Below, piece by piece: positions 3,630-36,785 of a stretch of 64,000 nt of DNA. Location: NCBI RefSeq assembly GCF_004339765.1, contig NZ_SMGO01000002.1, positions 62,001-126,000 of the forward strand, written 5' to 3'. A program made the translations under genes and the position numbers. Source of the stretch: Albibacterium bauzanense. Its GTDB lineage: Bacteria; Bacteroidota; Bacteroidia; Sphingobacteriales; Sphingobacteriaceae. Numbering within the stretch: the first letter of the stretch is position 1; each line of letters starts with the position of its first letter. Under the pieces are notes generated by a model. The model had not been told where the DNA came from and searched no databases. It was given only the letters and a program-made list of their open reading frames with translations.

Positions 3630-3718
3630 TCAATTAATTAAATCAACGGTTTTTGAATTTAATTTTAATCCCTTCCTATTTGGTAGAGATTCTAAAAAAT
3701 TATTTGCATCTTTGCAGT

Positions 3719-3825
3719 GCTTATAGAGAAAGACGGAGGGATTAGACCCTACGAAGTCTTGGCAACCTGTACTTACAAGGTGCTACATTCTACCTGAACG
3801 AGAAATCAAACCAGGAAAGATAAGC
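3719..3825 (+). promoter_or_regulatory. SAM-I (S-box) riboswitch upstream of metH
   Basis: The sequence carries the S-box core: GGAGGGATTAGACCC, then GAAGTCTTGGCAACC, an AAGGTGCTACATTCTACC arm, and GAAAGATAAG near the 3' end. The P1 helix closes perfectly between 3719-3724 (GCTTAT) and 3820-3825 (ATAAGC). Binding of S-adenosylmethionine is expected to switch off the metH-metF transcript. No strong GC-rich hairpin with a U-run is visible in the 92 nt before metH, so the expression platform (transcriptional or translational) is not clear. A CATCTTTG box at 3707-3714, one base off TAnnTTTG, is a plausible -7 element placing the RNA start at about 3719, the first base of P1. Confidence 0.9.
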
Positions 3826-3917
3826 TGCAGTTTCATTACCTCCTGCTCCTCTATATTTAAAGCATTTTAAAATAATTTTTCCAGCGTATTTAATTACGAT
3901 GGTTATTTATCAATGAC

Positions 3918-36080: not shown

Positions 36081-36111
36081 TTGCTCTTTTATTTTTTATT
36101 GTGTAAGTTTG
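36081..36111 (+). promoter_or_regulatory. Promoter of the GreA/GreB-like gene
   Basis: TTG(C) at 36081-36084 is followed after 20 bp by TAAGTTTG (36104-36111), a good Bacteroidota promoter. RNA would begin near 36115, giving a leader of nearly 190 nt. Confidence 0.65.
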
Positions 36112-36300
36112 GAAAGATGAATCAAGCATTAACATATAACAGGCTCAGTCTGTATCGAAGTTCCTATTCAAATAAGGAACATACTCGATTCATCAAATTC
36201 CTTATTGTATAAGATAGCTGCATCTCAGCAATCTGTTTCTAAAACCAAATTTCTTACATATTCATTAACCTTATCAGTTTGATAATTAACATACAATAGC
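36112..36300 (+). ncRNA. Candidate structured leader RNA with competing helices
   Basis: The transcript would start with GATGAATC (36116-36123), which is perfectly complementary to GATTCATC (36187-36194). Inside lies GTTCCT (36160-36165) with AGGAAC (36175-36180), flanked by ATCGA (36154-36158) with TCGAT (36185-36189). A competing 9-bp helix joins AATAAGGAA (36171-36179) to TTCCTTATT (36198-36206). A GCTG-CATCT-CAGC hairpin follows near 36216-36230. Several of these pairings exclude each other. I do not recognise the fold as a known riboswitch or 6S RNA. It could equally be an independent small RNA. Confidence 0.4.
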
Positions 36301-36303
36301 TTT

Positions 36304-36690
36304 ATGAAAAATAACACCAATACAGCAGTAGTTTTAAGCGAAGAAGACTTCGAACTACTAAAAAGCTTTGTGACACCTTCTGCAAATGATGAAAACCCAA
36401 TGTCCTTAGCTTATGAATTAAGCCGGGCTAAAGTTGTGAAAAAAGATCAGGTCCCAGAAGGTCAGGTTAGAATAAACTCAAAAGTTACAATCGAAGATTT
36501 AGTGAGTAAAGCTAAAACTACAGTCACTATAGTTCACCCTTCAGATGCTGATATTAAACAACAAAAAATATCTGTTTTAACACCTATTGGTTCTGCACTG
36601 ATCGGCCTTAAAATTAATGACGAAATTGAATGGAAGATGCCTGTAGGCCTAAGAAAATACATCATATTGGAAGTAAGTAACCCTAGTTAG
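36304..36690 (+). CDS. GreA/GreB C-terminal-domain protein (Rnk-like)
   Basis: The 128-residue protein matches the family of GreA/GreB C-terminal-domain proteins annotated as nucleoside diphosphate kinase regulators. Visible features are an N-terminal helix (VLSEEDFELLKSFV), LAYELSRAKVV, VRINSKVTIEDL, the VTIVHPSDAD strand, and the GreA/B-like ending ISVLTPIGSALIGLKINDEIEWKMP. Members bind the secondary channel of RNA polymerase; here the coiled-coil arm of GreA is replaced by a short helix, so transcript cleavage is not expected. It is monocistronic: its own promoter and a long leader lie upstream, and a 48-bp palindromic terminator follows. Confidence 0.82.
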   Translation: MKNNTNTAVVLSEEDFELLKSFVTPSANDENPMSLAYELSRAKVVKKDQVPEGQVRINSKVTIEDLVSKAKTTVTIVHPSDADIKQQKISVLTPIGSALIGLKINDEIEWKMPVGLRKYIILEVSNPS

Positions 36691-36737: not shown

Positions 36738-36785
36738 TTATAAGAAAGCCCTTCAACAATTAATTGTTGAAGGGCTTTCTTATAA
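36738..36785. terminator. Bidirectional terminator, perfect 48-bp palindrome
   Basis: All 48 bases are self-complementary (centre between 36761 and 36762), forming a stem with AAGAAAGCCCTTCAAC on one side and its mirror on the other. It lies between the convergent GreA/GreB-like gene and the isomerase-like gene and would end transcription from both sides. A perfect palindrome with almost no loop is exceptional. Confidence 0.88.

Follow-up and report, generated by a model that had tools for sequence, protein, structure and literature searches.

The window, i.e. the whole 64,000-nucleotide stretch of Albibacterium bauzanense DNA analysed here, contains at positions 36304–36690 (forward strand) a Rnk-type gene of the GreA/GreB family, and the DNA just upstream of it raises the question of how the expression of such a gene might be controlled. 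The gene codes for a protein of 128 aa (PF01272, E 3.9e-24), for which the best NCBIfam model is the nucleoside diphosphate kinase regulator, the score of 108.6 bits lying just under the cut-off of 109. In a preliminary description the segment upstream, of which this gene is the presumed target, was regarded as a switching leader or a separate small RNA. Its view of the segment as a likely regulatory leader of a Rnk/GreA-like gene is supported, and in relatives this gene is preceded by a conserved element; what is conserved, however, is a putatively translated ORF with a terminal hairpin, and a riboswitch or a separate small RNA is not supported. We favour, with moderate confidence, the reading that the leader consists of a leader peptide and an RNA hairpin and belongs to a type of leader-peptide attenuator widespread in Bacteroidota, in which ribosomes on the leader ORF probably set the amount of an RNA-polymerase helper protein. 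The ORF, the peptide motif, the spacing and the covariation of the hairpin, and the place of the leader before Rnk-like or glutamate-synthase-like genes are established by comparison of sequences.

A putative promoter lies at 36081–36111 on the forward strand, where the preliminary description had placed it, with TTG at 36081–36083 and a −7 box, TAAGTTTG, at 36104–36111; the box is of the TAnnTTTG type, which we take to be the Bacteroidota −7 consensus, and the same TAAGTTTG is found upstream of the leader of the congener described below. From the position of the box, the 5′ end of the transcript is expected near 36116–36118 (near 36115 in that description). A sigma-70 promoter scan made no call at the leader, as expected for Bacteroidota promoters, and an intrinsic terminator scan called none between 35900 and 36900 of the window. 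Five nucleotides downstream of the −7 box stands the ATG (36117) of an ORF overlooked in the earlier reading. It spans 36117–36212, directly upstream of the Rnk-like gene and on the same strand, ends with TAA at 36210–36212, and has 31 codons, specifying the peptide MNQALTYNRLSLYRSSYSNKEHTRFIKFLIV.

The only other genome of the genus compared (G001; n = 2 for the genus) codes for a Rnk-like protein 73% identical to that of the window, and upstream of its gene the same −7 box is followed by an ORF for MNQNITYRLTERSRSSKLRYPCFIKYLIL, with the start, the stop, and the frame kept. The two peptides in the ORF frame score 47 versus 19.9 ± 4.2 for shuffles, none of 1000 being as high, and for the other two frames 203 and 1 of 1000 shuffles are as high. 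The differences between the ORFs, 14, 8, and 16 at codon positions 1, 2, and 3, respectively, are distributed in a manner only weakly typical of coding DNA. A DNA search with the window leader returned only the leader itself in its own genome, and the best match in the congener (E 0.69) lies elsewhere. Translation of ORF 36117–36212 as a leader is the more secure part of the explanation and is considered highly probable.

Relatives from eight families carry, before a Rnk-like or a glutamate-synthase-like gene, a short ORF ending with K-[D/A/E]-F, followed after 9–10 nt by a hairpin with a C-rich 5′ arm. In Sphingobacteriaceae, the ORFs before Rnk-like genes end with YSFxxSSKDFI[KNQ], with GCCCC...GGGGC directly past the stop codon, and the leader peptide of one genome (G085) is identical to that of Olivibacter jilunii (L035). 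Among the 16 best-scoring Rnk-like loci in this family (L002–L017), 12 have K[DEA]F with the hairpin, two (L016, L017) have a variant leader ending with A-F-N-x-F-T-P-D-L, read by eye, and the last two are the window and its congener. The Rnk clade of the window comprises 19 loci at E ≤ 1e-26 in the 399 genomes of the family, and a KxF leader with a hairpin is found in 15 of them; the remaining four are the divergent pair of the window and G001, and L192 and L193, in which another gene intervenes, only the immediate upstream segment being considered. Leaders of families f29, f34, f36, f41, f50, f54, and f61 have either NKAF[IV]x or HSKAFVD before the stop codon, or [FY]xxxFKDFxxx[TSA]P, and the same kinds of leader are present in Agriterribacter and Dyadobacter. 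Several leaders precede a glutamate-synthase-like gene (PF01645); in L078, L085, and L086, Rnk comes next after this gene. Tandem leaders occur as well, with two copies in L014, L085, L086, and L148, and three in L078.

With the first peptide profile, A2, matches at E ≤ 1 were obtained in 115 of the 201 genomes, the weaker ones being noise, and those in L061, L063, L065, L066, and L145–L147 were rejected on inspection. In the family of G038 (10 genomes), with one Rnk-like locus (L087) and the others GreA-like, no clear leader was seen, and the leader script picked up none before the Rnk-like genes located right after pntB in other families (L135–L140); the pntB neighbour was confirmed by PF02233 in L136 and L139 and judged by length and resemblance in L135, L137, L138, and L140. 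Downstream of the hairpin and before the next ATG, L044, L050, L056, L057, and L069 have the stretch CAGT..AAAC..GTTT..ACTGTCTT, which can be folded as a second hairpin; the same stretch precedes the second and the third leader of a tandem array. In L043 (the same as L009), one extra base 5′ of the hairpin moves the stop codon, so that the peptide becomes SSKDFIKLSPCHSG, and the spacing between the motif and the hairpin is unchanged.

The geometry of the leaders was determined in 73 of them, from 65 loci, left after removal by hand of 25 rows outside the operon position from a set of 98 rows (69 hand-chosen loci) with the motif and a stem starting 7–12 nt after F. When stems were scanned 0–44 nt after the F codon, the best one started at 9 or 10 in 55 of the 73 leaders versus none of the 25 removed rows, a count which reflects also the preselection of the set for a stem start at 7–12 nt and its cleaning by hand. 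The stop codon is located at +6 in 58 leaders and at +3 or from +15 to +39 in the other 15, of which 11 still have their best stem at 9–10. As the distance from F is retained in leaders with a displaced stop codon, the hairpin is tied to the peptide motif and not to the stop codon, as would be expected if the ribosome at the motif matters. C is found at +10, +11, and +12 after F in 71, 71, and 69 of the 73 leaders, respectively. In a later set of 11 leaders of the window's Rnk clade, collected by peptide only, a stem at +8 to +10 is present in all 11 when examined there, and an unrestricted scan gave the best stem at +8 to +10 in seven and at +5 or +6 in four.

The hairpin also covaries. Alignment A4, comprising 55 of the 73 leaders and a hairpin of seven pairs, has 57 cells changed on both sides versus 17.9 ± 5.4 in shuffled alignments (0/500) and a covariation score of 0.348 versus 0.160 (0/500), a shuffle control inflated by the relatedness of the rows; versions of the hairpin slid along the alignment give 7–32 double-change cells. 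Less marked are the number of pairs with a double change (6; 23/500 shuffles) and that of further pair types (20; 28/500). The pN/pS ratio of the leader ORFs is 0.19–0.57 in eight of ten pairs and about 1 in two. The 59 stop codons adjoining the hairpin comprise 50 TAA, nine TAG, and no TGA, versus TGA in 19 of 154 background ORFs (naive p 4e-4). The K and F codons of the motif vary synonymously, and its D/A codon is GAC in 51 cases, GAT in two, and GCC in 13, the background being 31% GAC among Asp and 25% GCC among Ala codons. This GAC wobble bias was rejected as a universal rule, as the later set has GAT in eight of nine cases; the Asp bias being reversed there, the preference for GAC is a feature of some clades only. 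The AARGMCTTY core pairs with upstream or downstream sequence no more than in shuffles. Frameshifting at the motif was set aside after a look by eye, in which no conserved product was seen. A U-run follows the hairpin in 10 of the 73 leaders versus 6.7 expected and is clear in a few (L130, L133); an intrinsic terminator as the general rule was rejected since U-runs are not enriched, and for the same reason termination does not seem to be the general controlled step. In L049, L064, and others, a possible second hairpin (GGCC..GGYC) overlapping the 3′ arm and followed by a U-rich stretch was noticed by eye.

A covariance model of the leader, R1, was run with stricter filters on 295 genomes of the class. 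At E ≤ 0.1 it had 16 hits, distributed among 14 genomes and all of them preceding, by coordinates, Rnk-like or glutamate-synthase-like genes (PF01645 in the case of the G422 hit); 13 of the 16 are training rows, and of the others, in G306, G376, and G422, that of G376 is nearly identical to a training row. At least one leader known from a searched genome was not detected by the model (L100, G306). The leader matches no Rfam family, either in the window or in the relatives, a search proposed in the preliminary description: at the gathering score only a SAM riboswitch and a tRNA were found elsewhere in the window and a single tRNA in the 39 relative loci, and at a permissive threshold the segment 36000–36400 gave five weak matches, none near its gathering score. 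The remark made there that no riboswitch class with this layout is known before Rnk-like genes has to be qualified, as attenuator-type rnk- and greA-leaders of Proteobacteria and bacilli have been published (PMC2965389).

The action of such a leader can be envisaged as follows. The short ORF would be translated from the 5′ end of the mRNA, or almost from it, and the ribosome would pause with K-[D/A/E]-F in or near the P site. When F occupies the P site, the ribosome footprint extends about 12–13 nt past that codon. By that measure the start of the hairpin would be covered at this point, and most of its 5′ arm once the ribosome stands at the stop codon, so that the leading edge of the paused ribosome would hold the hairpin open. 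Formation of the hairpin would then report how the end of the peptide is translated, and would decide on the expression of the Rnk-like gene and, where present, the glutamate-synthase-like one. In the clades with a terminator-like hairpin and a U-run (e.g. L130, L133), the pause would lead to readthrough; in other clades the effect would lie elsewhere, in a second hairpin, Rho, mRNA decay, or translation, and a second hairpin overlapping the 3′ arm (e.g. L049, L064) would reverse the sense of control. In its widest form the proposal is tentative: the leaders might be nascent-peptide sensors widespread in Bacteroidota, in which the pause at K-[D/A/E]-F reports translational stress, or else the condition of the ribosome, through the leading-edge hairpin and sets the level of a secondary-channel factor (Rnk/Gre) and a glutamate-synthase-like enzyme, with up to three such sensors in series in some lineages.

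The same layout might instead sense the coupling of the ribosome to RNA polymerase with no peptide-specific arrest, a close ribosome keeping the hairpin open and a scarcity of Gre resulting in a lagging polymerase and more Rnk. The model here is the pyrBI attenuator, a coupling-type one, whose leader ORF extends as far as a hairpin, or into it, so that the hairpin can be masked by a ribosome close by; the K[DAE]F leaders resemble it in having an ORF that reaches a hairpin maskable by the ribosome, but they keep a peptide motif and most of their hairpins have no U-run. The position of the hairpin is indeed one that would be masked by a trailing ribosome, the target encodes a factor acting on RNA polymerase, and in E. 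coli the greA gene is repressed by GreA via the greA leader (PMC6829880). However, pure coupling leaves unexplained both the conservation of a peptide motif whose K and F codons vary synonymously and the fixed distance of the hairpin from F and not from the stop codon, and we consider it unlikely.

The copy present in the window departs from the family pattern. K-[D/A/E]-F is absent near the end of its peptide (R-F-I-K-F-L-I-V) and of that of the congener (C-F-I-K-Y-L-I-L), and the window peptide carries I-K-F where the family has K-D-F. In an alignment made by eye to L199, whose peptide ends with YIPCFKDFDHFTPGL, the congener ends with RYPCFIKYLIL and the window with HTRFIKFLIV, and F28 of the window (Y in the congener) may correspond to the conserved F. 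Past F28, the best stem begins at +11 (9–10 nt in the family) and its 5′ arm is not C-rich; it forms a weak hairpin of AGAT/ATCT and GCTG/CAGC with an A·A mismatch (36212–36234, forward strand), which begins at the last base of the stop codon, 11 nt past the F28 codon, and is matched in stability by 9 of 1000 mononucleotide shuffles of the stretch. In the congener a hairpin of different sequence begins at the same place, at the last base of the stop codon, with 104 of 1000 shuffles as stable. Compared to the leaders of six relatives, the window peptide shows marginal similarity, the best values being reached in 73 and 93 of 2000 shuffles, and R1 has no match at the window leader and one weak match elsewhere in the window (40524, E 1.9). 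The best reading is that the window leader is a divergent, derived copy of the family, assigned to it by gene, position, and geometry; for the window, the pause with the hairpin would be a weaker part of the explanation than the translated ORF.

For the window alone it can also be argued that the genus has lost the device and that a decayed leader remains, its RNA fold being incidental. The disappearance of K-D-F, the weakness of the hairpin, the missing R1 match, and the ordinary fold of the congener's ORF would fit such a loss, but the two species retain the ORF in frame, and each has a hairpin, albeit not of the same sequence, beginning with the last base of the stop codon; we regard decay as improbable.

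A derived copy of the family must also be weighed against the RNA structures from which the preliminary description started. All its pairings are perfect complements at the coordinates it gave, as rechecking of the letters confirmed. The 5′ arm of the 5′-end helix, GATGAATC (36116–36123, forward strand), includes the start codon and is fully complementary to the 3′ arm, GATTCATC (36187–36194, forward strand; codons R-F-I). Downstream of the 5′ arm and on the same strand lie the 6-bp hairpin GTTCCT/AGGAAC (36160–36180, pairing 36160–36165 with 36175–36180), a 9-bp helix of AATAAGGAA (36171–36179) with TTCCTTATT (36198–36206), together spanning 36171–36206, and the pairing of ATCGA (36154–36158) with TCGAT (36185–36189). 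Because the ORF spans 36117–36212, every one of these helices lies within coding sequence, the 5′-end helix beginning one base 5′ of the ATG. The leader folds stably, with −22.5 kcal/mol for 36116–36215 (z −4.20) and −35.6 kcal/mol for 36116–36303 (z −4.66), in each case with none of 200 dinucleotide shuffles as stable. The minimum free energy structure contains the 5′-end helix, a hairpin ACAGGC/GUCUGU (36139–36153), and the 6-bp helix, to which the 9-bp helix is an alternative. The fold of the window ORF is unusual also when compared to 1000 synonymous recodings (6/1000 as stable), that of the congener's ORF is ordinary (173/1000), and the complementarity of the 5′-end pairing has a p of 0.004 in the window and 0.138 in the congener.

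The conservation of these helices in relatives, on which the earlier interpretation depended, is not observed for most of them. The 6-bp hairpin is not seen in G001, the one congener compared, and neither P2, P3, nor the 9-bp helix is kept in it; what the relatives share is the peptide with its terminal hairpin. The start-codon helix is kept in part in the minimum free energy structure of the congener (AUGAA/UUCAU and CAG/CUG), its letters also encoding M-N and F-I. In the window it could add a further layer of control by concealing the start codon before translation of the ORF, a proposal drawn from a single genus. Comparable start-codon pairings are found in L004 (p 0.038) and L035 (p 0.022); pairing of the start codon with the F region was rejected as a general leader feature, p being below 0.05 in two of 68 leaders. 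A riboswitch or another structured RNA whose helices exclude one another, or a distinct small RNA, would account for the strong fold and its excess over synonymous recodings, and greA- and rnk-leaders of other phyla can yield small RNAs (PMC2965389); with no Rfam match, P2, P3, and the 9-bp helix not retained in the congener, and the reading frame kept, this is very unlikely. That the ORF codes for a small protein acting independently, as its conserved frame and a pN/pS below 1 in most pairs would allow, is the least credible proposal, considering that the N-terminal parts vary widely, that copies are arranged in tandem immediately 5′ of one and the same operon, and that the ORF end is linked to a hairpin.

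In Proteobacteria, bacilli, and Clostridia, attenuation is a frequent mode of control of the greA/rnk gene family, although no feature common to greA- and rnk-leaders was found (PMC2965389); the studied greA-leader case is the E. coli GraL (PMC6829880). Like the leader-peptide attenuator proposed here, these are leaders of Gre/Rnk-family genes with alternative structures, attenuation, and possible autoregulation (PMC2965389, PMC6829880); unlike it, they are terminator/antiterminator RNAs, with neither a leader peptide nor Bacteroidota mentioned in the portion of the source available to us (PMC2965389). Arrest peptides of the TnaC type also control a downstream operon by halting the ribosome at the end of a short leader peptide (PMC8429421), and we infer a similar stall on the peptide for the K[DAE]F leaders; these differ in the motif, in the hairpin starting 9–10 nt past it, and in the stop codon, which may lie beyond. 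In the toiL-type uORFs, which sense translation stress, the position of the ribosome on the uORF likewise changes RNA structure, but the toiL structure, as described in the accessible text, covers the ribosome-binding site (PMC12121999), whereas the K[DAE]F hairpin lies tens to hundreds of nucleotides before the start codon. Leader-peptide-like ORFs are mentioned in general terms in the available parts of two Bacteroidota transcriptome papers (PMC9723704, PMC7366714), and among the literature matches listed (titles and abstract openings, mainly of the open literature) there is no description of the K[DAE]F leader. If the proposal is true, a peptide-plus-hairpin device before a Gre-family gene couples the rescue of RNA polymerase to translation in Bacteroidota, the mRNAs of which are reported to have no Shine–Dalgarno sequences (PMC6847099), and a translated solution is added to a gene family known elsewhere for frequent attenuation (PMC2965389). 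The device comes with a short testable motif (K-[DAE]-F, 9–10 nt, hairpin) and a clear set of operons.

Two further elements of the window deserve mention. The SAM riboswitch found by Rfam lies at 3718–3826 (forward strand; RF00162, 66.3 bits). Just 3′ of the Rnk-like gene, between convergent genes, there is a perfect 44-nt palindrome with no loop (36740–36783), which is probably a two-way terminator.
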